Part shown: positions 424-17,451 of the stretch, one piece after another
Position numbering within the stretch: the stretch's first letter is position 1
Layout: the number at the start of each line of letters is the position of its first letter
Origin: Planctomycetaceae bacterium
GTDB taxonomy: Bacteria > Planctomycetota > Planctomycetia > Isosphaerales > Isosphaeraceae
DNA length: 17,451 nt
Direction: 5' to 3'
Assembly: GCA_019232645.1 (NCBI GenBank)
Contig: JAFANO010000196.1
Coordinates: 1-17,451, forward strand
Position numbers and translations under genes: made by a program
The notes under the pieces: model-generated
What the model saw: only the letters and a program-made list of their open reading frames with translations
The model's database searches: none
What the model was told of the DNA's origin: nothing

Positions 424-544
424 GGTTGTTCTGCATGAGAAAGGGGGCGGAACGCTAAAGGTTCTGGACACTTTACGAGTGACGCGGTAATTCTTTGGGC
501 TCACCGGGGACTTCTCCTTCCCTGATCTCCGGAGAATCCGCAGG

Positions 545-685: not shown

Positions 686-751
686 CAAAGGAGTACTCAC
701 GAAACGCTCCATCCGGGAGTTTCCCGCTATCATCAAGGAGAACGCAAGGTC

Positions 752-945: not shown

Positions 946-1032
946 CCGTCGTCGGCCGGCGCGGCGCAGCCCTCGGGCGCACCGGCTCCCCGCCGCCGGG
1001 GGCGGTGGCGCGGGCGCAGCTCGCGGTCGCGC

Positions 1033-1665: not shown

Positions 1666-1799
1666 GGGCGAGCGTCTCCTCCGGACAGGCGGATGTGGGA
1701 AAGGCCCAGGCGAAACGGGTCGGATCGAACGGGAAAAACGTCGGACGGCTCTGATCGAGTCGAGCGGTTTCCCCGGCCCGTGTCGCCCGGCCCCCACGC

Positions 1800-3319: not shown

Positions 3320-4624
3320 ATGGCCCCATCGACGGAGAGCAACCCCCCCGCGAAGGAGAAGGAGAAGGACTCGAAGGGCTTATCCAGCTTCAACGAGTTC
3401 AACCTCGAGAGATCAATCATCAAGCGCGGCCTCGCCACGCCGGAAGAGATCGAGCGTTGCAAGGCCTACAAGGCCAAGCTCGCGTCCAAGGAGGATTCCA
3501 GGGGCCTGCTCGAGATCATGGTCGAGGCCAACGTCCTGACCAGGAACCAGGCGATCCGGATCCTCAAGGCCCTGGGCGAGTCGGCCAAGAAGCTCGAGAT
3601 CCCCGGCTACCAGATCCTCGAGAAGCTCGGCAAGGGATCGATGGGGGTCGTCTACAAGGCGCGTCAGATCGCCGTCGATCGCATCGTTGCCGTCAAGATC
3701 CTGCTCAGCGCCCTGGCGCAGAACAAGGAGTTCATCACGCGCTTCGGCCGCGAGGCCAAGATCGCCGCCAAGCTCTCGCACAACAACATCGTCAACGCCA
3801 TCGACGCCGGCGAGGTCAACGGCTATCACTACTTCGTGATGGAATACGTCGAGGGGTCCACGATCAAGGACACGCTCGACAAGGGCCAGGTCTTCGAGGA
3901 GAAGGAGGCACTGGAGATCGTCTTGGCGGTGGCCGAGGCGCTGAAGCACGCGCACGACCGCGGCTTGATCCACCGCGACATCAAGCCCGAGAACGTGATC
4001 CTGACGAAGCACGGCGGCGTCAAGCTCGCCGACCTCGGGCTGGCCCGGCTGACGGCCGACGAGAAGTGGGCCATGTCGGAGGCGGGCATGGCGATCGGGA
4101 CGCCGTACTACATCAGCCCCGAGCAAGTCCGGGGGCAGGTCGACGTGGACATCCGCGCCGACATCTACAGCCTCGGCGCCACGCTCTATCACATGGTCAC
4201 CGGCCGCGTCCCGTACGAGGGCGAGACGTCGTCGGACGTGATGCGCAAGCACGTCGACAAGGACGTCCCGCTCGTCCCCCCCGACCACGTCAACACCGAC
4301 CTCTCCAGCGGCCTGGGCGTGGTGGTCGAGACGATGATGGCCAAGAACCGCGAGAACCGCTACCGCAACCCCGACGACCTGATCTTCGACCTGAGATGCC
4401 TCCTCCAGGGCGAGAGCCCGATGATCGCCGGCCAGAAGACCGAGTCGCTCGCCGTGCTGGCCGAGGGAGACATCGACGAGGTCATCCGCCACGCCACCGA
4501 GGCGCGGATGGTCGAGTGGGCCGCTTACGTCAACAGCCGCTACCACGTGATCGTCGCGCTGGCCGCGATGCTCGGGTTCTCGATCATCACCAACATCGTG
4601 TTCTTGACGACGCGCCGGCCGTAG
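3320..4624 (+). CDS. Ser/Thr protein kinase with C-terminal membrane anchor
   Basis: A 434-residue Hanks-type kinase. The ATG at 3320 follows GGGAG (3308-3312), and the Lys/Glu-rich N-terminus starts here. Residues 27-85 form a helical module with two similar segments, 'RGLATPEEIERC' and 'ANVLTRNQAIRI', resembling the short helical domains found at the N-terminus of type II secretion ATPases (inference). The kinase domain spans about 97-370: glycine loop 'LGKGSMGVVY' (103-112), ATP lysine K126 ('VAVKIL'), alpha-C glutamate E145, catalytic loop 'HRDIKPEN' (218-225), 'DLG' in place of DFG (238-240), and activation segment 'GTPYYISPEQVRG'. A single hydrophobic helix at about 409-430 ends five residues before the C-terminus ('TTRRP'), so there is no extracellular sensor domain. 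An active kinase facing the cytoplasm is expected; the substrates are unknown. Confidence 0.92.
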   Translation: MAPSTESNPPAKEKEKDSKGLSSFNEFNLERSIIKRGLATPEEIERCKAYKAKLASKEDSRGLLEIMVEANVLTRNQAIRILKALGESAKKLEIPGYQILEKLGKGSMGVVYKARQIAVDRIVAVKILLSALAQNKEFITRFGREAKIAAKLSHNNIVNAIDAGEVNGYHYFVMEYVEGSTIKDTLDKGQVFEEKEALEIVLAVAEALKHAHDRGLIHRDIKPENVILTKHGGVKLADLGLARLTADEKWAMSEAGMAIGTPYYISPEQVRGQVDVDIRADIYSLGATLYHMVTGRVPYEGETSSDVMRKHVDKDVPLVPPDHVNTDLSSGLGVVVETMMAKNRENRYRNPDDLIFDLRCLLQGESPMIAGQKTESLAVLAEGDIDEVIRHATEARMVEWAAYVNSRYHVIVALAAMLGFSIITNIVFLTTRRP

Positions 4625-5036
4625 ACGAGGCCACCCCCCTCGAGACACCCGAGGATCGAGCGGCGACGGGTCGTGTCCCCGGATGTCCCGGACCTCCGTG
4701 GCACGAGGGACTCCCGCGGGCGTCGGTGGGGCCCGCCGCCAGAATCCTGTCGGGGAGATCTGCCGTGGAGCCGGAACCCCGCCGAAAGCCGGGAGCGGGG
4801 CCTACCTCCGGACGGGAGGATCGGGGGCGGGACGGCGCCGGAGGACTCGAGGCCCCGACACGGAAGCGGCCCCTTCGACAGTCGAGCGGGGCCTCCGCGG
4901 GCACCTCGGACGATCTCCGGGAATCATGTCGGCCGATCCTCCGTGATCGGAAGCCTCAAAGGCGAGACGGGCGGAGCGAGATGCGACGGATGTGATGGCG
5001 CCGTTGACTTCCTGAATGCATCTCCGCGGGCTCAAT
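4625..5036. other. Convergent intergenic region with weak hairpins
   Basis: This 412-bp gap lies between convergent genes, the kinase on the plus strand and the zinc-ribbon gene on the minus strand. No gene is supported: the frames crossing it lack ribosome binding sites and conserved motifs. Two small inverted repeats are visible. CCCCGC (4777-4782) pairs with GCGGGG (4795-4800), and CCGATC (4933-4938) pairs with GATCGG (4945-4950). Neither has a T-run, so a terminator role is only a possibility. Confidence 0.45.
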
Positions 5037-5345
5037 TCAGTTCTTGCTGAAATCGAACAGACGAAGGGACTCCTTGCCCAGCGGGTCCTTCAAGAACTTA
5101 ACATGGCAGGCCGGGCAGAGGTCGAACCGAAAGCCTTTGCGAAGGGGGGCGGCGAGGTCTTCAGGGGAACCGCCCTCGTCGCGCTGAAGGATCTGCGAAA
5201 CCGCTTCCATGTGGTCATCGTCGAGGTCGTCCTCCGTGATCTCGGTGGGGTCGAAGCCGGGGTAAGCCTCGATCTTGACCACATAGCGGGGGTCACCGCA
5301 CGCGGTCAGGTCTTTGCCGCAGAGATCACACGTGAAGTGGACCAT
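5037..5345 (-). CDS. Small zinc-ribbon protein, conserved in planctomycetes
   Basis: A 102-residue protein with two CxxC pairs, 'CDLCGKDL' (C6, C9) and 'LCPACH' (C77, C80). They flank an acidic middle ('EITEDDLDDDHMEAVSQIL', about 35-53), an arrangement expected to bind one zinc ion. It resembles a short family seen in planctomycete genomes, with 'YVVKIE' after the first knuckle and 'CPxCHxxFLxDPLG' at the second. The function is unknown. The ATG at 5345 is preferred because the CxxC knuckle follows immediately, as is typical of the family; an in-frame ATG at 5384 would add 13 residues and overlap the preceding gene by 25 bp. GAGGGA lies about 12 nt upstream. It sits 14 bp downstream of the YfhO-type gene, so the two are almost certainly cotranscribed. 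Confidence 0.75.
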   Translation of the reverse strand: MVHFTCDLCGKDLTACGDPRYVVKIEAYPGFDPTEITEDDLDDDHMEAVSQILQRDEGGSPEDLAAPLRKGFRFDLCPACHVKFLKDPLGKESLRLFDFSKN

Positions 5346-5359
5346 CAGCGTCTCATCCC

Positions 5360-7738
5360 TCAGTGATTGGCCGGTGAAGTGCACAAGACCGATTCTAACT
5401 CGGCGGGCTGGGTCCGTCCAAGCCCTGGAACGATAATTCGAGTAGATCGGAACCGGCGAAATCCCGTCAAGCTAAAAACCAGGAAGGCCAGCGCGAGGGC
5501 CGTGATGGCCACCGCGGCGCGGACTTCGGGCGGCTCATAGCGCAAGTTTATGACATGTGTCCCCGCGGTGACGGGCACGGACAGGAAGACGCCGTGCGCC
5601 GGCTCGACCGGGACGGCGCGGCCGTCGACCTCGGCCCGCCAGCCGGGATCGAATGTCTCACGGATGATGATCCGATCATCGCCGGGACAGAGCACCGCGA
5701 TCCGGGCCCGGTCGTGGTCGCGCCGGACGTCGAGCCGCGCGGGGCGCGACGCGGCCGAGGCCCAGGGCGCGGCGTCGAGCCGGGCGACCCAGACCGCCCC
5801 CACGCGATCGACCCGGGCAAAGGCCCCCGGCGGCGGGGCCGAGGCGACGACCGCCCGCACCGCGGCCTCGCGGAGGCGGTCGCGGGCGCGGAGCACGCCG
5901 GCCCAGGTGATCGCGCGGCGGCTCGATCGCGGCGCGCCGTCGGGCTCGTACAACGGCGCGAACCAGTCCAGGTTCCGCGACAGCTCGACCGAGTCGTAAT
6001 TGCGGACGTCGCCCAGCCCGAACCGCATCAGGGTGTTGGGCGGCAGCTCCTCGCCGACGCCCAGCACGCGGCCGTCCGGCCCGACCTCCCGCCGCAGGTA
6101 GGCGACGACCGCGCCCTCGGGGTGATCGTCGCCGGGGTCGATCGCCGGGTTGAGGCCGAGGCCGAAGCCGAACAGGTCGACCAGCGTCAGGCCCATCAGC
6201 ATCGGCCGGATCGCTCGGCCGGAGATCCGGCCGCGCCACCAGGACTCGGCCAGCACCGCCAGGAGGGCGAAGTGACCGGCCGCCACCGCGAGGTAGCGAG
6301 GCACGAACTCCAGCGCACTCCGGACCTGGCGCTCGGCGCGGCCGCGGGAGACGGCCGGATCGGCGCCGGGGACCTCCGCGGCGATCCGCGCGTAATGTTC
6401 CTGCGCCCGGGCGCGGAGCCGGGGCTCGGCCCGGCCGACGCCGGCCGACACCGCCAGGGCGCCGGCGGCGGCGACGACCCAGAGCCGAGCCCCGACCCGC
6501 CTCGGCCGCGCGGCGGCCAGCCGGTCGATCCCCAGGCCGCCGAGCAGGACCAGGCCGAAGGCCACCCAGAGGGTCAGGCGCCGGTTGTCGGTGACGTCCA
6601 GCACCGGCACGGCCCGGAGCACGTTCGCGACCGGCGGGAGGCCGAACGCCCCGAGCGCCCCGACCACGACCAGCCCGGCGAGGAACCGCGCCCAAGGCCG
6701 CCGAGACCGCTCGCACCAGCCCAGCGGGGCCAGCCAGATCAGCGTCGCCAGGCCGGCGAATCCCCCCGCCGACTCGTTCAGGTTCTCCACGCCCAGGGCG
6801 CGCGCCAGGTTGGGATGCCCCCGGCGCTGGCTGCCGAAGGCATACGGCAGCGCCGTGCAGACGGACTCGAGGGCGCGAGGACGGGTCAGCGCCCAAGGGG
6901 ACGGACGCGCTTGGGCGCGATCGGCCCAGACCGGGCTCCGGCCTAGGTAGCACCAAAGCGGGACGACCTCGACAGCCGCCAGGGCCACGCCCAGCGCGAC
7001 GCCCCCGGCCCAGGCCGCCAGGCCACCTCGGGCCAGACCCCGGCCGCTCGCCCGCCAGGCCGCGTGGAGCCCCGCCGCCAACAGCACGTGGGCGCTGGTC
7101 TGGGCATGGCCGCCGAGCAGGACCAGCCCCACGACCAGGGCCAGCAGCCCGACCGTCCGCGGCCCGGGACCTGCCAGGGCCCGATCCGTCGCCAGGAAGA
7201 GCCAGGGCATCCAGACGGCCACGCTCGTGACCGGATAGAGCAGCCAGACGATCAGGAAGCCACAGAACGGGAAGGCCAGGCCGGCGAACCAGCGGCCCCA
7301 GGGCCCGAGCCCCCAGGACCGTGCCAGGAGGAACATCCCCATCCCCGCCACCCAGAGCCGCGCGGCGGCCATCCAGACGTACGCCTCGGGGAGCGTGCCG
7401 AGATAGGCGATCGCGTGGAACGGGTCGAAGACCGCGCTCTGGCCGTTGGCCAAGTGCGGCGCCCCGCATCCCGCCAGGCCGTTCCAGAGCGGCAGCCGCC
7501 CGCGCCGGAGCATCGCCCGGTTGAAGTCGAGCCAGGGCTGGAACTGAAGGACCGGGTCCATCAGCAGCCGGTTGGCCGGCTCGAACGACGGTCCCCGCTC
7601 GTCGCGGAAGCTCGCCGACACCCGGAGCACGTCGGCCGGGCTGAGCACCCTGCCGGCGAACAGCGACTCGCCCAGGAACCCCGCCACCAGCGCGGCCAAG
7701 ACGGCGGCGAAGGCCCACCGTTCGCGGCGCCACGTCAT
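5360..7738 (-). CDS. YfhO-family multi-spanning membrane protein
   Basis: A 792-residue integral membrane protein. It begins with a signal-anchor helix (about residues 8-27), followed by the soluble N-terminal signature of the YfhO family: 'DPVLQFQPW' (61-69), 'RLPLWNGLAGCGAP' (81-94), 'ANGQSAVFDP' (97-106). Many hydrophobic segments follow to about residue 540. A C-terminal periplasmic beta-rich domain contains 'RETFDPGWRAEVDGR' and 'GVFLSVPVTAGTHVINLRYEPP', then a final helix ('VAITALALAFLVFSL'). Family members are linked to surface glycan or teichoic-acid decoration and resemble GT-C glycosyltransferases; the exact substrate is unknown. The ATG at 7738 is chosen over an in-frame GTG at 7759 because GGGAGG (7749-7754) lies 10 nt upstream. 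It is followed after 14 bp by the zinc-ribbon gene. Confidence 0.82.
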   Translation of the reverse strand: MTWRRERWAFAAVLAALVAGFLGESLFAGRVLSPADVLRVSASFRDERGPSFEPANRLLMDPVLQFQPWLDFNRAMLRRGRLPLWNGLAGCGAPHLANGQSAVFDPFHAIAYLGTLPEAYVWMAAARLWVAGMGMFLLARSWGLGPWGRWFAGLAFPFCGFLIVWLLYPVTSVAVWMPWLFLATDRALAGPGPRTVGLLALVVGLVLLGGHAQTSAHVLLAAGLHAAWRASGRGLARGGLAAWAGGVALGVALAAVEVVPLWCYLGRSPVWADRAQARPSPWALTRPRALESVCTALPYAFGSQRRGHPNLARALGVENLNESAGGFAGLATLIWLAPLGWCERSRRPWARFLAGLVVVGALGAFGLPPVANVLRAVPVLDVTDNRRLTLWVAFGLVLLGGLGIDRLAAARPRRVGARLWVVAAAGALAVSAGVGRAEPRLRARAQEHYARIAAEVPGADPAVSRGRAERQVRSALEFVPRYLAVAAGHFALLAVLAESWWRGRISGRAIRPMLMGLTLVDLFGFGLGLNPAIDPGDDHPEGAVVAYLRREVGPDGRVLGVGEELPPNTLMRFGLGDVRNYDSVELSRNLDWFAPLYEPDGAPRSSRRAITWAGVLRARDRLREAAVRAVVASAPPPGAFARVDRVGAVWVARLDAAPWASAASRPARLDVRRDHDRARIAVLCPGDDRIIIRETFDPGWRAEVDGRAVPVEPAHGVFLSVPVTAGTHVINLRYEPPEVRAAVAITALALAFLVFSLTGFRRFRSTRIIVPGLGRTQPAELESVLCTSPANH

Positions 7739-7799
7739 GGGTGCAATGCCTCCCTGCACCGCGATCGAGCCCAGCCACTCCCTCGATGTCGGCCCCCAG

Positions 7800-7827
7800 G
7801 AATAACGGATTCCCCGATCTTGCTCAA
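7800..7827 (-). promoter_or_regulatory. Possible weak promoter upstream of the YfhO-type gene
   Basis: On the minus strand TTGAGC (7822-7827) is followed after 16 bp by TTATTC (7800-7805), inside the 157-bp gap between the rRNA methyltransferase stop and the YfhO start. The match to sigma-70 boxes is modest, so read-through from the upstream genes is equally likely. Confidence 0.25.
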
Positions 7828-7895
7828 GCCGAAGCCGGCGCGCCCCGCGCCTCGGGCCTCGTCTCCTCCCCGGATCGGTTCCCCGCGCGGCCGGC

Positions 7896-9098
7896 TCAAC
7901 CGACGCGGCAGACGAAGCACTTCAGGTATTCCGTCTCCAGGCACGAGGCCGAGATGGGATGGTCGGGCGCCTGGCCGCGCTGCTCGAGGATCTGGATCGG
8001 CCGGCCCGAGAGCTCGGCCACCTGCCCGAGCACGTCGGCGAACAGGCCGCGATCGACCAGCCCCGAGCACGAGCACGTAACCAGCACGCCGTCGGGCTCC
8101 AGGACGTCGAGCGCGGCGCGGTTGAGCCTCAGGTAGCCCTTCAGCGCCTCCTCGACGCCACGCGGATGCCTCGCGAACTTGGGCGGGTCGCAGATCACGA
8201 CCCCGAACCGCTCGCCCCGGGTGCGGAGCGCCTCCAGGACCTCGAAGGCGTCGGCGGCCTCGAACCGCGCCGCGCCCAGGTGGTTGATCACGGCGTGGTG
8301 TCGCGCAACCTCGATGATCGTCGCGGAGCTGTCGATGCCCAGGACCGAGGTCGCGCCGCCGTGCCTCAGCGCGTTCAGCGCGAACCCCCCCGTGTAGCAG
8401 AAGAGGTCGAGGACGCGCCTCCCCCGACAGTAGCTGGCGACGGCCCGGCGGTTGTCGCGCTGATCGAGGTAGAAGCCGGTCTTCTGGCCCCCCTTGAGGT
8501 CCACCCCGTAGGTCAGGCCGTGCTCGATGACCTCCACCGGCTCCATGGGCAGCGTGCCGAGGAGGACCTCCTCGGGGGCATGCAGACCCTCCGGCTCGGC
8601 CGTCCCGCGCTCGGGCCGCGACAGGAGGCCTTCGGCCCCCGTCTGCTCGAGCAGGAGCCGGGCCAGGAGCGCGCGACGCTCGAACAGCGCCAGGCTCGTG
8701 AACTGCGCGACCAGCCAGCGGTCGAAGCGATCGACCGTCAATCCCGAGAGCCCGTCCCCCTCGCTGAAGACGACGCGGAAGCCCGCGCCGGGGCCGCCGA
8801 GGCCGAGCACGTCGCGGCGCAACCGGACGGCGGCGGCCAGCCGCTCGGACCAGAACGCCTCGTCGAGCGGCCCGCCGTCCCAGCGATAGAGCCGGACCCG
8901 GATCGCGCCTCGGGGGTTGAACAGCCCCCGGGCGATGAACCGCCCCTCGTGGCTGAACACCGCCACCTCGGAGCCCGGCCCCGGCTCCCCTTCCACGCGG
9001 CCGATCGAGGTCACGAACAACCAGGGGTGCCGGGCGAAGAACGGCCGCGCCCGTCGCGGCTTCACGACCACGCGGGGGAGGCTGGGTTCCGTCGTCAT
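7896..9098 (-). CDS. rlmI: Class I SAM-dependent rRNA methyltransferase, RlmI-like (23S rRNA m5C)
   Basis: A 400-residue cytoplasmic enzyme. The N-terminus 'VVVKPRRARPFFARHPWLF' (10-28) is the PUA-like RNA-binding domain typical of RlmI/YccW, followed by the linking motif 'GDGLSGLTVDRF' (114-125). The Rossmann methyltransferase domain shows 'GQKTGFYLDQRDNR' (204-217), SAM motif I 'DLFCYTGGFAL' (231-241), 'GIDSS' (254-258), the catalytic 'DPPKFAR' (304-310), and 'TCSCSG' (341-346) bearing the cysteine expected for 5-methylcytosine transfer. Length matches the E. coli enzyme (about 396 residues), which modifies C1962 of 23S rRNA; the site here is inferred. The ATG at 9098 overlaps the stop of the upstream response regulator by 4 bp (ATGA), so translation is probably coupled. 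A long upstream extension of this frame is only the regulator gene read in another frame. Confidence 0.88.
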   Translation of the reverse strand: MTTEPSLPRVVVKPRRARPFFARHPWLFVTSIGRVEGEPGPGSEVAVFSHEGRFIARGLFNPRGAIRVRLYRWDGGPLDEAFWSERLAAAVRLRRDVLGLGGPGAGFRVVFSEGDGLSGLTVDRFDRWLVAQFTSLALFERRALLARLLLEQTGAEGLLSRPERGTAEPEGLHAPEEVLLGTLPMEPVEVIEHGLTYGVDLKGGQKTGFYLDQRDNRRAVASYCRGRRVLDLFCYTGGFALNALRHGGATSVLGIDSSATIIEVARHHAVINHLGAARFEAADAFEVLEALRTRGERFGVVICDPPKFARHPRGVEEALKGYLRLNRAALDVLEPDGVLVTCSCSGLVDRGLFADVLGQVAELSGRPIQILEQRGQAPDHPISASCLETEYLKCFVCRVG

Positions 9099-9550
9099 GG
9101 GGCGCGGCTGGCCGCCTCGAACTCGGCGAGATAGGCCAGGGTCCGGTCGAGCTGGCTCTTGAGGTGCCGGACCCGCAGCAAGCTCCTGACCCGGCAGACC
9201 AGCTCGACCTTGTTGACCGGCTTGGTCAGGAAGTCGTCGGTCCCGGCCTGCACGCCGCGCTCGAAGTCGGCCGCCTCGTTCAGCGCCGTCACCATCAGGA
9301 TCAACAGGTCCTTGGTGGTGGGGTTGGCCCGGAGCTTGCGGCAGACCTCGAACCCCGACAGCCTCGGCATCATCACGTCGAGCAGCAGCAGGTCGGGGGC
9401 GAACTCGTGCACGACCCGGAGGGTCTCCTCGCCGTCGAACGCGGTCCGGAGCTCGCAGTCGAAGTCGCTCAGGTACGCCTCCAGCAGCTCGACGTTCTGG
9501 AGGTTGTCGTCGGCGATCACGATCTTCGGGGGACCTTTCGGAAGATCCAA
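9095..9550 (-). CDS. Single-domain response regulator (CheY-like receiver)
   Basis: A 151-residue receiver protein with no DNA-binding or enzymatic output domain. All phosphotransfer residues are present: acidic pair D14/D15 ('IADDN'), phosphoacceptor D58 ('LLLLDVMMPRLSG'), T88 ('MVTAL') and K110 ('FLTKPV'). The sequence 'KVELVCRVRSLLRVRHLKSQLDRTL' after the receiver is a helical tail of the type that leads into PAS/GGDEF/kinase modules in longer relatives, but here the protein simply ends about 25 residues later. The start is TTG (9548-9550), supported by AGGAGA (9558-9563) seven nt upstream. No histidine kinase is nearby. The stop overlaps the start of the rlmI-like gene. Output is presumably by protein-protein interaction. 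Confidence 0.88.
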   Translation of the reverse strand: MDLPKGPPKIVIADDNLQNVELLEAYLSDFDCELRTAFDGEETLRVVHEFAPDLLLLDVMMPRLSGFEVCRKLRANPTTKDLLILMVTALNEAADFERGVQAGTDDFLTKPVNKVELVCRVRSLLRVRHLKSQLDRTLAYLAEFEAASRAP

Positions 9551-9901
9551 GGCAGGGTCTCCTGAGAAACCGACCGGCTGCGCCCGAAATCCTCAAAAGG
9601 CGTCGCTGTCGCGCTAGGCTCGAAGGACGGACGGGACGGGGTCGGAAGCGCGGCGTTCATGAGGAAGATTCTACCCGCGCGGACGTCCCGCCGGAACCGG
9701 AATTGTCGCCGATCCCGATGCCTCGCCCCACGGATCGGCCTCGACAGCATCCACGGATGATTGTTTGTCTTGCTGGGACGATCGTCGCTTGCCCTGCCCC
9801 GGTGGAATGTTAATATTCCTAAAGACCGCGTCTCCCCCTCTGAGAGATCGGCTCTCGTTGGACGTGACTCGTGCCCTCTTCCTCGGCGAGGAGGTCCGTC
9901 C
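9551..9901. other. Divergent intergenic region between response regulator and sigma factor
   Basis: This 351-bp gap separates the minus-strand response regulator from the plus-strand sigma gene. The sigma frame stays open upstream to 9761, but that stretch has no conserved region and the ribosome binding site supports a start at 9902. An AT-rich patch around 9804-9820 contains an inverted repeat (described separately). No clear -35/-10 pair was identified on either strand. Confidence 0.45.
9804..9819. promoter_or_regulatory. AT-rich inverted repeat upstream of the sigma factor gene
   Basis: GGAAT (9804-9808) and ATTCC (9815-9819) form a perfect 5-bp inverted repeat around a 6-bp AT-rich centre, about 85 bp upstream of the sigma factor start codon. 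It is the only AT-rich island in this GC-rich gap. It could be an operator or overlap the promoter; there is no direct evidence of binding. Confidence 0.25.
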
Positions 9902-10540
9902 GTGCCCCTGCGTGACATCGACCGGCAGTTGATCGACCGTTGTCTGCGGAAGGACCCGGGCGCGTGGAATGATTTCGTCGACCGCTACATGGGCCTCATC
10001 TACCATGTCATCCACCATCTGGCGCACGCCCGCAGCATCGTCCTGAATGCCGCCGACACCGAGGACCTGGCCGCCGAGATCTTCCTCCAGATCGTCGATG
10101 ACGACTACGCCACGCTCCGGCGGTTCAAGGGGGCCAGCTCGCTTCCGACGTACTTGACGGTGGTGGCGCGGCGGATCTGCGTCAAGGAGCTGATCCGCCG
10201 CCATCGCGAGGCCGAGCTGGGCCACGCGCATGCCCACCGCGCGGTCCTGAACCAAGACCGAGGCGAGCAGGCCGAGGCCATCGCCTCGGCCGAGGAGGTC
10301 GAGCGGATGCTCGAGGACCTGCCCGAGCGCGAGGCCGAGGTTGTCCGCCTTTATCATTTGCAATACCAGAACTACCGCCAGATCGCCAGGCAGCTCGGCA
10401 TCCCCGAGAACTCGGTCGGCCCCGTGCTGGCGAAGGCCCGGCAACACCTCCGCCGAACCGCCGAGCAGCGTGGCGCACCGGCCGTTCCCGAGTCCCAGAA
10501 CGCCCCGTCCACGTCGGGATCCTGGCGCTCAGCTCGTTGA
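9902..10540 (+). CDS. ECF-type sigma-70 family RNA polymerase sigma factor
   Basis: A 212-residue sigma factor with regions 2 and 4 only. Region 2 covers about 22-100: 'WNDFVDRYMGLIYHVI', the core-binding and -10 recognition part 'DTEDLAAEIFLQIV' (52-65), then 'FKGASSLPTYLTVVARRICVKELIRR'. Region 4 covers about 134-187: 'MLEDLPEREAEVVRLYHLQ' and the helix-turn-helix 'NYRQIARQLGIPENSVGPVLAKARQHLRR', which reads the -35 element. The GTG at 9902 has AGGAGG (9889-9894) seven nt upstream and sits where conservation begins; the longer frame from 9761 is not preferred. A Pro/Ser-rich tail of about 25 residues follows region 4. No zinc-binding or membrane anti-sigma gene is adjacent, so control of activity is unknown. 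A kinase-based or partner-free mode as in other planctomycete ECF groups is possible. Confidence 0.87.
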   Translation: MPLRDIDRQLIDRCLRKDPGAWNDFVDRYMGLIYHVIHHLAHARSIVLNAADTEDLAAEIFLQIVDDDYATLRRFKGASSLPTYLTVVARRICVKELIRRHREAELGHAHAHRAVLNQDRGEQAEAIASAEEVERMLEDLPEREAEVVRLYHLQYQNYRQIARQLGIPENSVGPVLAKARQHLRRTAEQRGAPAVPESQNAPSTSGSWRSAR

Positions 10541-10553
10541 CCGCCCCGCTGCG

Positions 10554-10571
10554 CTGATACGCATTCCAGAG
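10554..10571 (-). repeat. Solo/degenerate end of the hairpin repeat family (copy C)
   Basis: Thirteen bases after the sigma factor stop, the segment 10554-10570 reads 'CTGATACGCATTCCAGA'. It matches the reverse complement of the right end of the element at 16407-16514 at 16 of 17 positions, and that of the element at 13313-13422 at about 13 of 17. The internal palindrome of the family is not recognisable beyond about 10571, so this is a truncated or heavily diverged copy in the opposite orientation. Confidence 0.5.
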
Positions 10572-10798
10572 GATGTTCCCCCCACACGTCCGGGCGGCGA
10601 TGGAGGGAATCCATCCCCCGAGGCGGGCGCGGGTGGACCCCGCGGCATTGCCGCCATGCTGCCCGCTCGCGTCGCGTCGCTGCTTCTTCCCCGATTTCCT
10701 GGACGCGGAGCATCGTCGCCCCGATGGTATTCTCGAGCATTTCGCGCCTTCGCGCCATCGACAAGGTCTCACCCTGGCGACCCACCGGAGCGACCTGA

Positions 10799-12802
10799 GT
10801 GACAAGCTTCGCCACCCCCCTCAATGACGCCTCAGCCTCCGTCGGCCCCGGAGGTTATGCCGCCGGTTCCGGCGTGCTCACCCTCGCCGCCGGGGGAGGG
10901 GCGATGTTCCCTTCGCTCTCGGCGGGCCAGTGGTATCGGATCACCGTCATCCAGCGGCAATGGGCCTACTCACCCTCGGCTACCCTTGTGAATTACACGA
11001 TTTACAAGGCCACCGCGGTTTCCGGGGACACCTTGACGATCGCGGGCCCGATCGAGGGCACGACCGACCGCAACTATGCCCCGGGCGACGTCGTCGAGGT
11101 CCGCGTCACGGCGGGTACGATCGGCGACCTCCAAGGCGCCGTCGGCGCGCTGGAGGCCGCCGCGGTCACAACGGCCGGTCGCTACGACGACCCGAGTTGG
11201 ATTACCGCCCTCGACGGCGGCAAGATCACGGGCGACATCGCCGGCAATGCGGCGTCGATCACGGGCACCATCGCCGAGGGTCAGGTCACCGGACTGACCT
11301 CCGACCTGGCGGCCAAGGCGGCGGATGCCGCGGTCGTCCACCTGGCCGGCTCCGAGACCATCACGGGCGCCAAGACCTTCTCGTCCACGATCGCGGCCCC
11401 GGCGGGGATCAGCGGCACGTTTACCGTCGACGGGACCACCTATGACCAGGGCGTGTGGCAGTGCACCAACACCGGCAAGGGTGCGATGCGGGTCGTGACC
11501 GCGGGGAGCACGGTCGGCGACTTCCCCGATCCCTGCCTCTTCATCGGCTACAATTGCGATGGCTTCGGCGGGCGTCCCCTCGGCACGGAGCCTTACTGGG
11601 CGACCGGATGGGAAGGGGATTACTACGAGTCGAGCAGCGGGAAGCGATTCTGCGAGCATTACATCCAATACGTTTCCCCGGATGGCACCGTCTCGCTGCG
11701 GCCGTTCTTCATCCGGATGAACCGTGCTGCGACCGACGCCGCGACGGCGATGGACACCGCCCTCTACCTCGGCAACCCGTTCCAGGTCGCGACCCCTGAC
11801 GGGACGGTGCAGGCCATGATCGGGTCCTTCGGGTCGCAGTTCACCGGGAACCTCGGGGTCGGCATCACGCCTCAATACCCCTTCCACCTGAAGAACGACG
11901 CCACCGCCGACGTCCAGGCGGCATTCGTCGGGGCGACCTCGACCCTGTACCTGGGCGGCAACTGGATCGGCGGCCAGCCGGGCCTCGGCACGAACGACGC
12001 CACGCCGCTGAATCTCATCACCGACAATGCGGCGGCGATCCATATTGGCGCCGCCGGAGGCATCACGCTCGGGAACTTGCTGACGCCGCCCGCCAACGGG
12101 GCGATCATCCCGGGACCGGTCGAGATCGGCAACGCCAGTACTCCGGAGGCTTACTTCCAGGTCTTCAACAAGCCTGCGGATTCCGGATCGTACAGCCTCT
12201 CGAACTGGAACGGCACCGGTCATCAGATCAGCGGATTTATCAAGTGTCCTACCAACAATGGTGGAAGCACTCCTGCGGCGGGCGAGCCGGTCCTCGTGCT
12301 CTCCCGGGAAGGCGTCGGCGGCCAGGCGTACGGCAATTTCGCCGAATTCCTGGTCCGGCGGTGGCAGAGCTCCGACGTGGCGGCCCGCACGGCGCTGGAC
12401 ATCGCGCTGACCCATGGTCCCGGCGACGCGGCCGGCACGGTCGTGTTCACCCTCCAAAGCGATGGGGCGGCCCTCCTGCCGGGGAAACTGGGACTTTCGC
12501 CCGGGTTCGGTTCAGGGAATACCTCGACCTTGCCTGCGACCCTGAGCGTCGGCACGGGCGGGGCGGGCAACACGGCGGCGGTGTTCCAGGCGGCGGGAAA
12601 CCAGACGGCCGATGTGTCGCAGTGGCAGGACTCCAACGGCAACACGCTCTCGGCGGTGGACGCCAACGGCTACCACCGGATGGTCACCGGCAGCGGGGAG
12701 CCGACATCGACCCCCGCCGACGGGGCAGTTTATATCGATGTGACCAACTCGAGAATTTACGTTCGCATCGGCGGCGTGTGGAAATCCGCGACCTTGAGTT
12801 GA
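10799..12802 (+). CDS. Orphan phage tail-fibre-like protein
   Basis: A 667-residue protein rich in Gly, Ala, Thr and Asp, with no signal peptide or membrane helix. Residues 1-120 form a beta-rich N-terminal region ('GVLTLAAGGGAMFPSLSAGQWYRITV'-like, here 26-50). Next comes 'DPSWITALDGGKITGDI' (131-147) and 'VVHLAGSETITGAKTFSSTI' (179-198), phrases typical of caudovirus tail fibre and collar proteins. The C-terminus 'GSGEPTSTPADGAVYID' plus 'NSRIYVRIGGVWKSATL' is also a common end of phage structural proteins. Start is GTG at 10799 with GGAG (10787-10790). No capsid, terminase, tail-tube, lysis or integrase genes accompany it, and it is followed at 10 bp by two small ORFs. It may be a domesticated surface/adhesion protein or a prophage relic. 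The function is inferred from composition and phrases only. Confidence 0.65.
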   Translation: MTSFATPLNDASASVGPGGYAAGSGVLTLAAGGGAMFPSLSAGQWYRITVIQRQWAYSPSATLVNYTIYKATAVSGDTLTIAGPIEGTTDRNYAPGDVVEVRVTAGTIGDLQGAVGALEAAAVTTAGRYDDPSWITALDGGKITGDIAGNAASITGTIAEGQVTGLTSDLAAKAADAAVVHLAGSETITGAKTFSSTIAAPAGISGTFTVDGTTYDQGVWQCTNTGKGAMRVVTAGSTVGDFPDPCLFIGYNCDGFGGRPLGTEPYWATGWEGDYYESSSGKRFCEHYIQYVSPDGTVSLRPFFIRMNRAATDAATAMDTALYLGNPFQVATPDGTVQAMIGSFGSQFTGNLGVGITPQYPFHLKNDATADVQAAFVGATSTLYLGGNWIGGQPGLGTNDATPLNLITDNAAAIHIGAAGGITLGNLLTPPANGAIIPGPVEIGNASTPEAYFQVFNKPADSGSYSLSNWNGTGHQISGFIKCPTNNGGSTPAAGEPVLVLSREGVGGQAYGNFAEFLVRRWQSSDVAARTALDIALTHGPGDAAGTVVFTLQSDGAALLPGKLGLSPGFGSGNTSTLPATLSVGTGGAGNTAAVFQAAGNQTADVSQWQDSNGNTLSAVDANGYHRMVTGSGEPTSTPADGAVYIDVTNSRIYVRIGGVWKSATLS

Positions 12803-12812
12803 GGGGCGAGCC

Positions 12813-13073
12813 ATGTTCCTCCAGGTCTCCGGCGATCTCCATCCGAATCGGGCCCGGACGATCACAGGCGATCGAACCCGGGTCTCTCCGCTGGCGCCGG
12901 GGTCCTCACCGGGCGCCGGCCGGATCACCATCCCTGTCCACAGCAGCGCGGCCGGCCCCTCGGGGCCGCACCCCTTCGAGCGGAGCGACCTTCCCTGCCG
13001 GGCCGTCGTCGGCGCGCACGGGGAGGCGAGCCGCGCCATCCCGAAGGTCGGGCCGGTGGAGGAGGTCTCGTGA
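12813..13073 (+). CDS. Hypothetical 86-residue protein downstream of the tail-fibre-like gene
   Basis: An ATG at 12813 begins 10 bp after the tail-fibre-like stop. GAGGGG (12801-12806) overlaps that stop and sits six nt upstream. Third codon positions are almost all G or C, as in the real genes of the window, which favours true coding. The product starts 'MFLQVSGDLHPNRARTITGD' and is Pro/Gly/Arg-rich with a single Cys and no recognised domain, signal peptide or membrane helix. Its stop overlaps the start of the next small ORF by 4 bp (GTGA). The arrangement suggests a translationally coupled cluster with the tail-fibre-like gene. The function is not recognised. Confidence 0.5.
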   Translation: MFLQVSGDLHPNRARTITGDRTRVSPLAPGSSPGAGRITIPVHSSAAGPSGPHPFERSDLPCRAVVGAHGEASRAIPKVGPVEEVS

Positions 13074-13288
13074 ACCGATCGACCTTCAACGGTGTCCCGA
13101 TGGGCACGAGCTCAATCGTCATCGCGACGACCCCGCGGCAGCGGCCGGACCCGTACCGCACGACCTCGGCGCGGGTCGGCCCCGACCCGCTCGCCGCCAC
13201 CTCGGCACGGGTCGGCCCCGACCCGCTCCGCGCCACCTCGGCGCGGGAGGGCCCCGACCCTTACCGGGCCACGTCGCGACGGGCCTGA
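13070..13288 (+). CDS. Hypothetical 72-residue protein with 12-residue tandem repeats
   Basis: A GTG at 13070 overlaps the stop of the previous ORF (GTGA) and is preceded by a strong GGAGGAGGT (13058-13066). The N-terminal 19 residues ('MNRSTFNGVPMGTSSIVIA') are followed by four tandem 12-residue units of the type 'TSARVGPDPLRA' (residues 20-67) and a partial fifth. The repeated part is Arg/Pro-rich and predicted to be disordered. Third codon positions are strongly G/C-biased. No family is recognised. Because the repeat is also open in other frames, the DNA repeat rather than the peptide could be the conserved entity, but start signal and coupling favour a translated ORF. Confidence 0.45.
   Translation: MNRSTFNGVPMGTSSIVIATTPRQRPDPYRTTSARVGPDPLAATSARVGPDPLRATSAREGPDPYRATSRRA
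13127..13285 (+). repeat. 36-bp tandem repeat, about 4.4 copies
   Basis: Four contiguous 36-bp units occupy 13127-13270, with a 15-bp partial fifth to 13285. Units 2 and 3 are nearly identical ('ACCTCGGCRCGGGTCGGCC' core); units 1 and 4 are diverged. The period is a multiple of three and keeps the 12-residue peptide unit in frame. There are no spacers between units. Confidence 0.8.
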
Positions 13289-13312
13289 CGCCGCGCCGGA
13301 GAGGGCGCCCGG

Positions 13313-13422
13313 CTCAGACGGGTCCCAGGAATTTTGTGCACCGATCTGCTGCGGATTTGAAATTGGAAATCTCAAATGTGAGACCCGGACAAAGGGCACA
13401 AACGATCCGGAATGCGTCTCAG
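13313..13422. repeat. Hairpin/MITE-like intergenic element, copy A
   Basis: A 110-bp element nearly alignable end to end with the one at 16407-16514. Ends are imperfect inverted repeats: 'CTCAGACGGGTCCC' (13313-13326) and 'GGAATGCGTCTCAG' (13409-13422), 10 of 14 pairing. The centre holds 'ATTTGAAATT' followed by 'AAATCTCAAAT', and flanking 'TTTTGTGC' (13332-13339) pairs with 'GCACAAAC' further right, so the whole element can fold as one long imperfect stem. Its right end contains the stop codon of the M1-barrel gene (13419-13421). No transposase is encoded. Confidence 0.7.
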
Positions 13423-16349
13423 AAGACCTGGTTCAGGCCGAACCAGAGGACCGGGCCGAATTTCGTGCCGATGCCGACGGGCTGGGCCAGGTCGATCCGG
13501 ATCACGGCGCGTTCCAGGAAGGCGAACAGCGCCGTGTCGATGCGCAGGCCGACCCCGACGCCGTGCACCACCGGATTCCACTGGCCTCGGATGTACGACT
13601 GGCCGACATCGTAGAAGACGGCGCCGACCAGGTTGCGGAGGCTGACGACGTGGTCGAGGAAATCCCCCTCGACCTCGCGCCAGAGGGGATACCGCCACTC
13701 GAAGGTCATCAGCCAGACCGAGCTGCCGAGGTCCTGGCTCAGGTCGAGGGCGCGGAGCCGGCGGCCGCCGCCGAGCCGGAACAAGGGGGCGGTGTCGGGG
13801 GCGCCGTAGCCGCCGTACGCCCGGAAGGCCAGCCGGCTCCTCGAGGGCTCGCCCGACCACGTCGGCAGCGGGCGGACGATGCCGTACTCGCCGGTCACGC
13901 GGACGTAGTCGATGCTCGACCCGAAGGCCCGATTGCCGTACTCGGCGCTGGCCTCGACCTCGAATCCCTGGACCGGGTCCCAGTAGGGGAACAGCGTGCT
14001 CAGGCGGTAGCGGCCGCCGATGGCGTCGAGCGCGCCGGTGCTGACCGGCCGGCCGTCGTCGCCCGCCCAGAACTCGTAGCCGGTCCCGAAGTAGAGCTCG
14101 GCGAACCCTTGGTCGTCGATCAGGAAGCTCGACGTCTCCAGGAACCGGTAACGGAGGAACGCGCGGCCGCCCGAGTGCCGCTTGTCGTTGTAGAAGTTGT
14201 AGAGCCCTTCCTCGTAGAAGACCCCCGCCGACCAGCTCGGCCAGGGGAAGTGCAGCAGCGCGAACTGCCCGCCGAAGATCGCCTCGCGCAGCGCCGGCTC
14301 GGTGCCGGCCCAGAGCGTGAGCTGCCAGCGGTCGAGCCGCTGGGCGCCGAGCTTGACGCCGCCGCGCGCGTACTGGTCGACGAACAGGCCGGAGACGACC
14401 GAGACCCGGTCGTGGGCCTGGAACTGCGACGCCTCGTCCAGGGGCGTCATCAGCGGGGTGAAGCGCCAGGCGACCTCGGGTTTCCAGCGGTTGTTGTCGG
14501 GGACCGCGTCGAGCAAGGCGTGGTCGGGGTCCACCACCACCTGCGACGGGGCCTGGGGGGCCTGGACCGTCACGATCCAGCGGTCCCCGGGCGTGGGATG
14601 CGTCACGCGAGCGCCGGGGACGTCGTAATCGCCGCGCTCGGGCCAGATCGGCACGCGGAGGTCGGCGTCACCGCACTGGCAGAGGACCACCGTCGGCTCG
14701 ACCATGGCGCCGCCCTGCTTCAGCTCGACGGTCACCTCGCGGCCGCCGCCGTCGGCGGGCGGGGGGCCGACCGCGACCCGTTCGAGCGACCAGTCGGTGT
14801 CCTTGTGCTCGATCAGCCAGCCGTCGAGGAACGTCGCCCAGTCGGTGCCCGGGTCGAAGGCGGCCAGCTCGCGCTTCAGGTCGGCGTAGTGGAACGTCTC
14901 GAAGGCGTAGTCGCGGTAGACCTTCTGGAAGAAGGCGAAGAACCGGTCGGGGCCGAGCCGGTTCTGGATCATGCCGATGACCTTTCCCCCGCGGTCGTAG
15001 GCCAGGCTGAAGAGCGTGCCCAGGTTGCCCATCTCCCTGAGCGGCCGGAGCGCCGAGCCCCCATTGCCGCGCGCCCGCCAGCCGTAGTAGCCCGCCAGCC
15101 GGAGGTCCTCGCGGCCGATCGTCGGCAGCCAGCCCAGGCTCTGCGGCCAGACGATCAGCGGGGCGTTCCGGCCGTACTTGGCGTCGAGCCGGAGGGCGGT
15201 GATGCCATTGACGACCCCCTCGTCCATGAACGTCTCGGCGTAGCCGTCGGTCCCCACGACGTTCCAGAACCACTGGTGGCACGTCTCGTGCGTGACCAGG
15301 TGGTCGAGGTAGCGCGCCCCCGCCGTCGGCAGCCTCATCACCCGGTCGTCGAGCAGCACCAGCCCCGAGCACTCGTTGCCGTTCCAGCCGAAGAACGAGG
15401 TCGAGATCTCGAACTCGTCATCGTAGTAGGGGCCGAACCAGCGCTCGTAGAGCGGCAGGACCTCCGCGGCGAAGCCCAGGACCCGCTCGGCGTTGGCCCG
15501 GTGCTCGGGGAACGCGACCACCCGGACCAGCGTCGCACCGACGCGGCGCTCGAGGACCTCGAACCGGTCGGAGCAGACCAGCGCGAAGTCGCGCGACGGG
15601 CTCGCCTCGATCGTCACGAGCTGCCGGCCCGGCCCCGAGGCCAGGCGCCCGGTGATCCGCCCCGACGAGGCCACCACCTGGCCCTCGGGCAGGTCGAACC
15701 GGACCACATAATGCCCCGCCTCCTGATACCAGGGCTGATGCCAGGGGACGAACGGGGTCCGCTCCCAACCGCGCTCGTCGTGATGCGCCAGGACCGGATA
15801 CCAGTTCAGCAGATACGTGATCCCGCGATGGTGCCCCCACCGCCCCCAGTAATCGGGAAGCTCGAGCGTGAAGTCGATCTCGACGACGACCGACTGCCCC
15901 GGCGCCACGGCGCGACCGAGCGGGACGATCATCACGGTGTCGATGGCGGGGTCGAACGCGAAGCTGGCCGCCCGACCCCCGACCCGGACCTCGGAGACGA
16001 CCATCCGGCGCCCCTGCGTGTCCATCGCCTCCTCGGGGCTGAGCCGGAGCACCTCCAGCGTCTTCGACAGGGTCACCCGGTCCTGGTCGCGCACCTGGTA
16101 ACGCGGATAGACGTGGAAGACGAGCTCGGTGGCCGCGACGCCCGACCGGTTCGTGAACCGGACCCGCTCGCGCGCCGAGACCCGCCGCTGATCCAGGTCG
16201 AGCCGGGCGTCGATGTCATACCGCGGCAACCCGGCCGGGACCGCCGGCCTCGGCCGCTGATCCGAGGCGTGGACCGGCCCCTGATCCGAGGCATGGACCG
16301 ACCCCGCTCCGGCCCGGGCGGTCCCCTGACTCGGCAGCCCAAGCCCCAC
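13419..16349 (-). CDS. Secreted M1-type metallopeptidase fused to an outer-membrane beta-barrel domain
   Basis: 976 residues from the first canonical start, GTG at 16349; a longer 989-residue form starting at ATT (16388) is more likely because it supplies a signal peptide. The M1-like beta-saddle and gluzincin domains fill about 43-560: 'NGNECSGLVLL' (323-333, equivalent of the GxMEN substrate loop), zinc motif 'HETCH' (354-358) with third ligand E377 after exactly 18 residues, as in M1 aminopeptidases. From about 650 on, alternating aromatic/polar strands appear ('SWSAGVFYEEGLYNFYND', 'GGRRLRALDLSQDLG', 'WLMTFEWRYPL', 'GAVFYDVGQSY') ending in '...GPVLWFGLNQVF'. This resembles the Omp85/surface-antigen barrel with its terminal aromatic. 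An outer-membrane-anchored peptidase is inferred. The stop lies in the repeat at 13313-13422. Substrate and topology are unknown. Confidence 0.85.
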   Translation of the reverse strand: MGLGLPSQGTARAGAGSVHASDQGPVHASDQRPRPAVPAGLPRYDIDARLDLDQRRVSARERVRFTNRSGVAATELVFHVYPRYQVRDQDRVTLSKTLEVLRLSPEEAMDTQGRRMVVSEVRVGGRAASFAFDPAIDTVMIVPLGRAVAPGQSVVVEIDFTLELPDYWGRWGHHRGITYLLNWYPVLAHHDERGWERTPFVPWHQPWYQEAGHYVVRFDLPEGQVVASSGRITGRLASGPGRQLVTIEASPSRDFALVCSDRFEVLERRVGATLVRVVAFPEHRANAERVLGFAAEVLPLYERWFGPYYDDEFEISTSFFGWNGNECSGLVLLDDRVMRLPTAGARYLDHLVTHETCHQWFWNVVGTDGYAETFMDEGVVNGITALRLDAKYGRNAPLIVWPQSLGWLPTIGREDLRLAGYYGWRARGNGGSALRPLREMGNLGTLFSLAYDRGGKVIGMIQNRLGPDRFFAFFQKVYRDYAFETFHYADLKRELAAFDPGTDWATFLDGWLIEHKDTDWSLERVAVGPPPADGGGREVTVELKQGGAMVEPTVVLCQCGDADLRVPIWPERGDYDVPGARVTHPTPGDRWIVTVQAPQAPSQVVVDPDHALLDAVPDNNRWKPEVAWRFTPLMTPLDEASQFQAHDRVSVVSGLFVDQYARGGVKLGAQRLDRWQLTLWAGTEPALREAIFGGQFALLHFPWPSWSAGVFYEEGLYNFYNDKRHSGGRAFLRYRFLETSSFLIDDQGFAELYFGTGYEFWAGDDGRPVSTGALDAIGGRYRLSTLFPYWDPVQGFEVEASAEYGNRAFGSSIDYVRVTGEYGIVRPLPTWSGEPSRSRLAFRAYGGYGAPDTAPLFRLGGGRRLRALDLSQDLGSSVWLMTFEWRYPLWREVEGDFLDHVVSLRNLVGAVFYDVGQSYIRGQWNPVVHGVGVGLRIDTALFAFLERAVIRIDLAQPVGIGTKFGPVLWFGLNQVF
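16257..16304. repeat. 24-bp tandem duplication in the N-terminal linker of the M1-barrel gene
   Basis: Two contiguous 24-bp units (16257-16280 and 16281-16304) differ at two bases. In the protein they give two copies of an 'HASDQ'-containing 8-residue unit, residues 19-34 just after the predicted signal-peptide cleavage site, in a flexible Pro/Ser/Ala linker. Confidence 0.75.
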
Positions 16350-16396
16350 GATCAGCCAGACGATCCATCGTCGCCGATGCGTCGGAATGATGGGTA

Positions 16397-16402
16397 CTCC
16401 CC
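16397..16402 (-). promoter_or_regulatory. Ribosome binding site pointing to an ATT start of the M1-barrel gene
   Basis: On the minus strand GGGGAG (16397-16402) lies eight nt before an in-frame ATT (16386-16388) and five nt before ATC (16389-16391). No ribosome binding site precedes the GTG at 16349. Starting at ATT adds 13 residues ending in 'THRRRWIVWLIV', creating a classical Sec signal peptide with cleavage after 'GTARA'. Confidence 0.5.
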
Positions 16403-16406
16403 ACGG

Positions 16407-16514
16407 CTTATACGGATTCCGGGGATTTCATGCGCTCGGTCTGCTGATTTGAAATCTGAAATCTCAAATTTGAGATCCGAACCGGGCGCACAAAAGATCT
16501 GGAATGCGTATGAG
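16407..16514. repeat. Hairpin/MITE-like intergenic element, copy B
   Basis: A 108-bp element in the same orientation as the copy at 13313-13422. Its ends are 'CTTATACGGATTCC' (16407-16420) and 'GGAATGCGTATGAG' (16501-16514), inverted repeats matching at 12 of 14 positions. The shared core is 'TCTGCTG' then 'ATTTGAAATCTGAAATCTCA' (16446-16465) and 'TTTGAGATCCG'. Internal arms also pair ('ATTTGAAAT' with 'ATCTCAAAT'). It lies 5 bp upstream of the ribosome binding site of the M1-barrel gene, so the gene's promoter is either inside it or upstream of it. Confidence 0.7.
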
Positions 16515-16600
16515 GCCCCTCCGCCGGATCCGTCGCGCATCCTAGACGATCCCGGGGAAAAGGTCATCCCGACCCTCGTGGGGAGGGAGGTCGGGGGCAG

Positions 16601-16645
16601 ACCTCATGTCACGCGACGTGAGGTTGTGCCGCGGAATGGCACAAC
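16601..16645. other. Two tandem, slightly overlapping hairpins
   Basis: The first stem pairs ACCTCATGTC (16601-16610) with GACGTGAGGT (16615-16624), ten pairs including one G-T wobble around a 4-nt loop. The second pairs GTTGTGCC (16623-16630) with GGCACAAC (16638-16645), eight perfect pairs around a 7-nt loop. They share two bases, so they could be alternative or stacked structures. Neither has a T-run. The role is unknown; a structured RNA, a protein-binding site or an element end are options. Confidence 0.5.
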
Positions 16646-16875
16646 GAAGTTGGCTCATCCACGGCCGCGCACATCCGCAGACCCTCGACGGGTCGCCTGC
16701 CGCCCCCGTCCGAGCCCGTCGCGGACCGGGTGCCCCACGCCATGATCGGCCCGAACCGACGCCCATCCCGCCGCCCGAAGCCCTGCTACCCGGCTCTCCC
16801 TCCCGATCGCCGCGTCCCGTCGCGAGGAAAGGTGACTCGCCGCGCGCCGCGGCCTGGTCGCGGGCCGGTAGTCCC

Positions 16876-16902
16876 TTGACGACCGCACGGGGGTGCGATA
16901 AT
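16876..16902 (+). promoter_or_regulatory. Sigma-70-like promoter for ppdK
   Basis: TTGACG (16876-16881) is followed by an extended -10 'TGCGATAAT' (16894-16902). The spacer is 15 bp to GATAAT, or 17 bp if TAATTT (16899-16904) is the -10 box. Transcription would start near 16910, giving a leader of about 100 nt before the ppdK ATG. Confidence 0.5.
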
Positions 16903-17011
16903 TTTTGTCATTTCATGAGGTTACACCATCTCACGTCCGTCTCGCCTGCCGAGGCGTCGGCGACGGCCGCCGGGGACTCGAGCGACGCGACCGAGGGAGT
17001 TTGCACCACCG

Positions 17012-17451
17012 ATGGCCACAACCGCTACAACTAAGTACGTCTATTCGTTCGGCGGTGGGAAGGCCGATGGCAAGGCCGACATGAAGGCCTTGCTCGGCGG
17101 CAAGGGGGCCAACCTGGCCGAGATGAGCGTCATTGGCATTCCCGTCCCGCCCGGCTTCACGATCACCACCGAGGTCTGCGCGGCCTACTACGAGAACGGC
17201 CGGAAGCTCCCCGAGGACGTCAAGCCGCAGGTCGAGGACGCCCTCAAGGAGATGGAGGAGAAGTTCGGCGCCAAGTTCGGCGACCCCAAGGAGCCCCTGC
17301 TGGTCAGCGTCCGCTCCGGCGCGGCGCTGTCGATGCCGGGGATGATGAACACGATCCTCAACCTCGGCCTCAACGACGTCGCGGTCGAGGGCCTGGCCAA
17401 GAAGACAGGCAACCCCCGCTTCGCCTACGACGGCTACCGCCGCCTCATCGA
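17012..17451 (+). CDS. ppdK: Pyruvate, phosphate dikinase, N-terminal part
   Basis: The ATG at 17012 opens a frame that runs off the window (146 complete codons). PpdK interconverts pyruvate, ATP and phosphate with phosphoenolpyruvate, AMP and pyrophosphate in the cytoplasm. The visible part is the start of the ATP-grasp domain. It shows '[13 protein letters not shown]' (8-20), '[12 protein letters not shown]' (27-38), '[14 protein letters not shown]' (43-56), '[20 protein letters not shown]' (97-116) and 'LNLGLND' (117-123), all hallmark strings of the family; R102 and the 'SMPGMM' loop lie in the nucleotide-binding region. GAGGGAG (16993-16999) is 12 nt upstream and the promoter at 16876-16902 lies above it. 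The phosphohistidine and PEP-binding domains are outside the window. PEP synthase is excluded by the dikinase-specific N-terminus. Confidence 0.93.

Follow-up and report, generated by a model that had tools for sequence, protein, structure and literature searches.

Among the short mobile repeats described in bacteria, RUP of Streptococcus pneumoniae measures 107 bp, has terminal inverted repeats and occurs in 108 intergenic copies (PMC2229807), and MITEAba12 of Acinetobacter, a miniature inverted-repeat transposable element (MITE), is non-autonomous, measures 111-114 bp and is flanked by target duplications (PMC6382973). The IS1031 group of the IS5 insertion sequences (IS) is reported to prefer TNA as target and to generate exclusively a 3-bp direct repeat (PMC12016507). 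In this work, we analyzed a stretch of 17,451 bp of planctomycete DNA (contig JAFANO010000196.1, positions 1 to 17,451; hereafter the window), in which two copies of a hairpin-forming repeat, A and B, lie on both sides of a gene encoding an M1 peptidase with a beta-barrel (M1-barrel gene). Our results indicate that A and B are very probably separate insertions of one high-copy family of non-autonomous DNA transposons, a MITE of about 100 bp, and that their bracketing of the gene is a coincidence.

This family resembles RUP in size (about 100 bp), terminal inverted repeats, intergenic position and high copy number, whereas it differs from it in the target, which is TA for RUP, with IS630-Spn1 taken as its partner, and CTNAG for the family described here, some of whose copies lie on stop codons (PMC2229807). 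With MITEAba12 it shares a similar size, the non-autonomous character and the presence of target duplications; those of MITEAba12, however, are 9 bp long, its proposed parent is ISAba12, and its 90 copies are spread over about 30 genomes, that is, far fewer per genome (PMC6382973). Repetitive extragenic palindromic (REP) elements are likewise high-copy palindromic extragenic repeats, but they are put at 20-40 bp in one abstract, in contrast to about 100 bp and a target duplication in our case. The 3-bp TNA duplication is held in common with the IS1031 group, whereas the ends of ISLrh, GAACCTGTCTAGTATCT, are unlike the consensus TACGSATTCC of our family (PMC12016507); no end sequence shared with an IS1031-group transposon was found in the contigs scanned, and the family is therefore not filed as a member of that group. 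Among the titles and abstract openings searched in a subset of PMC, which is no proof of absence, none described a bacterial MITE targeting stop codons, and among articles mentioning both subjects no title dealt with MITEs in planctomycetes. The family is a new MITE family, with otherwise ordinary mobile-element biology.

A preliminary description of the window had reported two copies in the same orientation, at 13313-13422 and 16407-16514, flanking a single gene, and both statements were borne out. The limits of the element proper were set by aligning the copies with their flanks, which yielded the following features:

13317..13418, plus strand: copy A, element proper, A-type subfamily; its five nearest copies are 92-95% identical to it
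13314..13316: TCA, target duplication on the left-hand side of copy A
13419..13421: TCA, its counterpart on the right-hand side of copy A, read on the minus strand as TGA, the stop codon of the M1-barrel gene
16411..16510, plus strand: copy B, element proper, B-type subfamily
16408..16410: TTA, the TNA to the left of copy B
16511..16513: TGA, the TNA to the right of copy B, with a middle base unlike that of the left one
13419..16349, minus strand: gene of the M1 peptidase / beta-barrel protein (976 aa), with copy A on one side and copy B on the other

The identity between A and B over the element is 79%, and the five nearest copies of B are 90-93% identical to it. A ribosome-binding site of the M1-barrel gene had also been placed 5 bp from copy B; the first ATG, GTG or TTG of the frame is at 16349, about 60 bp from copy B, so that the G-rich stretch beside this copy is too distant from any such start, and this claim was not confirmed.

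The draft genome that contains the window (G000) totals 3.86 Mb over 777 contigs, with a completeness of 81%, and many dispersed relatives of both copies occur in it, which agrees with the earlier proposal of a MITE-like family. When copy B served as the BLAST query, 53 matching pieces were returned (40 scored out of 159 candidates), and an A-type consensus returned 42 (40 scored out of 147); a model built from 45 copies gave 148 matches (150 scored candidates out of 1206), some of these matches being fragments, or the two strands, of a single place. The end motif GGAATNCGTNTNAG, allowing up to one mismatch, occurs 156 times in the genome and its reversed-pattern control 8 times, which shows that the repeat exceeds chance. 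Counts at the level of single copies refer to 545 kb of this genome, mostly contigs selected for carrying copies; they comprise 76 full-length rows and 75 distinct copies, since row L169 is a copy already present in L159. No match to the repeat was found in the plasmid and viral collections searched.

The element is about 100 bp long and reads TACGGATTCC...GGAATGCGTA, these two sequences being the terminal inverted repeats of the B-type; the ends of the A-type are more imperfect, and the consensus of the element ends is TACGSATTCC, inverted. Sixty-three of the 75 copies measure 92-111 bp and the other 12 measure 113-131 bp, and further pairs of ends with equal TNA reach about 170 bp, with 255 bp in locus L107; the longer copies have an enlarged AT-rich palindromic core. 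Among the 63 copies of 92-111 bp, two subfamilies could be told apart, with identities of about 89% within the A-type, about 83% within the B-type and 81% between them, the labels being rough and some copies being put in the wrong class. The element has no coding capacity, and the only gene found between ends close enough for one element, in locus L131, belongs to a nested IS. A short element, under some 300 bp and without coding capacity, with terminal inverted repeats, a target duplication and many dispersed copies is what defines a MITE, a label for which an autonomous partner is not needed. Besides, paired copies lie head to tail, with shared or abutting target sites, at L132 2276-2480 (contig C311) and L033 3140-3360 (contig C201) of the same genome.

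The duplication of the target, which the preliminary description had left to be looked for, is a 3-bp TNA. It is present on both sides of the element in 60 of the 76 rows, and the middle base of the pair is equal in 45 of these 60 (shuffle mean 22, maximum 35 in 10,000 shuffles) and complementary in only 4, which makes it a direct target duplication and not an extension of the inverted repeat. The preferred flanks are C before the TNA (42/76) and G after it (52/76), giving the target CTNAG. The 14-bp terminal inverted repeats described earlier thus consist of a 10-12-bp element end plus the duplicated TNA and the preferred flanking C/G.

TNA includes TGA and TAA, both of them stop codons, so that the protein is not altered when the element inserts on a stop codon, the stop being copied to both sides. 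This is the situation of copy A, at the end of which the preliminary description had correctly placed the stop codon of the M1-barrel gene. The seven named orthologues of the M1-barrel protein, 65-76% identical to it (two from named Singulisphaera genomes, the rest from metagenome assemblies), share the terminal residue ...NQVF, with a stop directly behind it, and none of the seven orthologous loci gave a match to the element model; copy A therefore inserted at the native stop of the gene. Altogether, 17 of the 75 copies lie exactly on a stop codon, copy A among them, and none lies inside a predicted gene, compared with 364 of 683 background CTNAG sites. The gene positions come mostly from a home-made gene caller that is unable to draw a gene across an element holding stop codons; no predicted gene ended within a copy past its TNA. 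The share of stops among non-coding background sites depends on the motif considered: it is 6.6% for TNA and 8.6% for YTNAR, over both of which 17/75 is enriched (p = 8e-6 and p = 4e-4, respectively), and 16.0% (51/319) for CTNAG and 18.5% for CT[CG]AG, over which it is not (p = 0.18 and p = 0.41). The target motif CTNAG therefore explains most of the stop-codon share. For the copies off stops, the nearest gene end is a 3' end in 40 cases and a 5' end in 18, against 93 and 175 for the background CTNAG sites (p = 3e-6), and divergent gaps hold 4 of 45 copies against 57 of 180 background sites. Both the 3'-end bias and the rarity in divergent gaps are expected if insertions near promoters are lost.

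The distribution of the repeat in relatives was examined in a class survey of 397 genomes drawn evenly, in each of which the best two candidates were scored. Full copies were found only in the genome of the window and in G006, of the same family, together with a core-only match in G239. G006 has one full copy, flanked by TCA/TGA, which may represent a transfer or a mis-binned contig. Matches to the element end were found at five loci in four relatives (G028, G064, G005 and two loci in G024); those in G028, G064 and G005 lack a partner end at 2 mismatches or fewer and are unexplained or due to chance. In G024, which belongs to another genus of the family, L181 1448-1516 and L182 1387-1513 share 69 bp with 91% identity, and the shared stretch ends in GATCCGGAATGCGTA, followed by TGA in one locus and by TCA in the other. 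L182 contains a candidate hairpin of 121 bp between TCA and TCA (RNA z-score -2.8), the right TCA being the stop of a transporter-like open reading frame; its interior is unlike that of the window's family and its right end is the same. No left end was identified in L181, and a search for a third copy in 388 kb of G024 (L181 and L182 included) gave weak profile matches only (best E 0.02-0.04), with no occurrence of the end motif (up to one mismatch) in the rest of these 388 kb. This arrangement suggests that the G024 hairpin may be a second MITE family, of two copies only, moved by the same kind of transposase. Core-only matches in G024 (L116-L127) and in G239 (L235 6260) are AT-rich palindromic stretches without MITE ends and were not counted as copies.

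The M1-barrel protein matches Pfam Peptidase_M1, and also Omp85, the latter under the curated cut-off; the gene is present in 21 of the 45 genomes of the family set, its own genome counted. Upstream of it, the window ends in a second gene, and copy B lies in the gap between the two:

17012..17449, plus strand: 5' part of a pyruvate phosphate dikinase (PPDK) gene, divergent from the M1-barrel gene

The M1-barrel and PPDK genes are on one contig in 5 relatives, at least 1.9 Mb apart, and on separate contigs in the other relatives. Their neighbourhood is rearranged in the genome of the window, and nothing ties this rearrangement to the repeats. A second PPDK-like place exists in this genome at C521:10612-11043, 94% identical to window 17012-17449 in the part searched, most relatives having one. 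Furthermore, in contig JAJYDB010000185.1 (L202) of a named metagenome-assembled genome, a block made up of the methyltransferase, the gene next to it and part of the sigma factor adjoins the M1-barrel gene as in the window, but is inverted relative to the M1-barrel gene.

One of the explanations put forward earlier was a composite unit, in which A and B would be the ends of a larger transposon carrying the M1-barrel gene; the presence of exactly one gene between two copies of the same orientation and a neighbourhood that relatives do not conserve speak for it. The flanks speak against such a unit, as no single target duplication surrounds it: the outer TNAs are TCA to the left of A and TGA to the right of B, and A has its own matching pair TCA/TCA. 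In addition, A and B come from different subfamilies, a full copy of the repeat was seen in only one relative (G006) while the gene occurs in 21 of the 45 family genomes, and none of the seven named M1 loci has the element. Bracketing itself is no more frequent than chance: in whole contigs of this genome, 68 of 320 intergenic gaps carry a repeat, a density at which 10.9 of 241 genes should lie between copies, and 7 do, including the gene of the IS nested in L131. The composite unit is on these grounds extremely improbable, and the M1-barrel gene looks like a conserved host gene and not like mobile cargo. To movement of a REP element by a REP-associated tyrosine transposase, for which short palindromic extragenic repeats in high copy number would speak, we give next to no probability. 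This family has a target duplication and a length of about 100 bp with terminal inverted repeats; to our knowledge, neither is expected of such movement.

More is to be said for a dispersed regulatory or terminator repeat acting as an RNA hairpin at gene ends, which we nevertheless hold to be very unlikely. The repeat had been described as settling at gene ends, each copy folding into one long stem. The 3'-end bias is real, but selection together with the target sequence accounts for it better than a function as terminator or RNA does; and the fold is clear for copy B, with z-scores of -8.2 on the plus strand and -4.6 on the minus strand, but weaker for copy A (-1.6 and -3.5 on the two strands). 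The covariance analysis called for earlier gave a divided answer. When imposed on the 45 copies, the stem of copy B pairs in 83.7% of cells (shuffle mean 82.9%) and has a covariation score of 0.068 (shuffle mean 0.059), values that 0 of 500 shuffles reach in either case, and the same stem slid by 1-3 columns drops to 18-52% pairing. The margin over the shuffles is small, however, and double-change pairs number 10 compared with 7.7 in the shuffles, 48 of 500 of which reach 10. The stem was drawn from copy B, so an advantage over its slid versions is expected; several of its pairs cannot form in roughly half of the copies, and no long stem common to the copies is predicted by RNAalifold. The region 13200-16700 showed no terminator-like or sigma-70-like site and the window no Rfam match, and the copies point the same way as the upstream gene about as often (23) as the opposite way (21). 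Support for a conserved RNA stem is thus weak, and the hairpin fold is accounted for by the inverted symmetry of a transposon, even if the fuller covariation controls made us rate the RNA explanation slightly higher. We give a small, somewhat larger probability to the possibility that the element is targeted to 3' ends, with insertions on stop codons promoted by the transposition machinery itself or by a selective advantage of double stops. The enrichment over the bare TNA and YTNAR backgrounds favours targeting, as do the copies whose outer sides C-TNA and TNA-G are both intact, 9 of 21 of which lie on a stop (51/319 for CTNAG, p = 0.005), and the hairpin of G024, unrelated in its interior and on a stop in one of its two loci. 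The whole set of 17/75, on the other hand, is not above the CTNAG or CT[CG]AG background, and the intact-flank subset of 21 is biased, since selection itself preserves stop codons. The finding in G024 slightly raised our rating of this explanation and also of a broader one, about which one may speculate and which we still regard as unlikely: that hairpins whose interiors differ have been spread, across two or more genera of a single planctomycete family, by one transposition system with ends TACGSATTCC and target CTNAG. Stop codons would then be a safe harbour favoured by transposition or selection, where an insertion would duplicate the stop of a gene and give it a new 3' end, leaving the protein unharmed.

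As for the transposase that would move the repeat, IS5-like transposases occupy 21 PF01609 and 6 PF13586 places in the genome of the window, some places being common to both sets. Inverted repeats were examined in 4 IS5-like contigs, and L095 and L098 have clear ends of their own, unlike the MITE ends. Pairs of MITE ends with two mismatches span a transposase in L095, L100 and L102 (with equal TNA only in L102); they were taken as chance, since the two-mismatch scan gave 42 pairs more than 350 bp apart in all. Locus L131 (contig C206, 445-1941), where exact MITE ends surround a transposase-like protein of 427 aa, was considered as an autonomous parent and rejected. This protein has no Pfam match, and its NCBIfam IS256 match is far under the cut-off. 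The interior is a 1.4-kb IS with its own ends, CTGACTCTACC..., which also occurs in G030, G066 and G024 without MITE ends, and it is therefore an insertion nested in a MITE copy and not the parent. Of 8000 candidates scored in the protein database, 2272 are relatives of the L131 protein. An autonomous transposase sharing the ends, which the preliminary description had proposed to look for, was not found in the contigs scanned, and its gene may have been lost or left unassembled. In the mechanism that we propose, an IS5/IS1031-type DDE transposase acting in trans would cut the ends of the element and join them to a staggered TNA target. At a stop codon, the duplication of the TNA restores a stop on both sides and keeps the protein intact, so that stop codons are harmless landing sites within gene-dense DNA. 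Copy A inserted on the native stop of the M1-barrel gene, and copy B, separately, upstream of the gene.

Several observations weigh against this account of A and B as independent MITE insertions. Sixteen of the 76 rows lack a clean TNA pair, and copy B is itself flanked by unequal triplets (TTA/TGA). No pair of ends with up to one mismatch was found in the 12 transposase contigs scanned, which hold no autonomous relative, nor was an autonomous partner found in the 545 kb examined of an assembly that is 81% complete. The comparison genomes include no close relative, and no empty site was seen at the nucleotide level. Finally, the statements on gene ends depend mostly on the home-made caller, and the comparison of stops with orthologues covers the M1-barrel gene only. 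Notwithstanding, the dispersed copies, terminal repeats, target duplication and lack of coding capacity uphold the MITE interpretation. With this family, abundant MITEs are described from a planctomycete lineage, and a countable case is available in which a target motif containing stop codons lets a mobile element spread in gene-dense DNA with little harm. The result speaks against the M1-barrel gene as mobile cargo, and the arrangement seen in the window is an ordinary outcome of the density of the repeat.

Besides A and B, the window contains a solo end that had been reported at 10554 in the opposite orientation and that proved to be an exact match to the right end of the element:

10555..10571, minus strand: putative remnant of a third copy, right end only; exact end match 10554-10567, TGA at 10555-10557

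No partner end was found nearby, and the solo end is probably what is left of a third copy. Two other features of this part of the window were recorded. The reading frame at 10799-12802 encodes a protein of 667 aa without Pfam or NCBIfam match that by eye is like a tail-fibre or surface-repeat protein, and at 13145-13283, shortly before copy A, a 67-nt repeat is present three times with a spacing of 36 nt.

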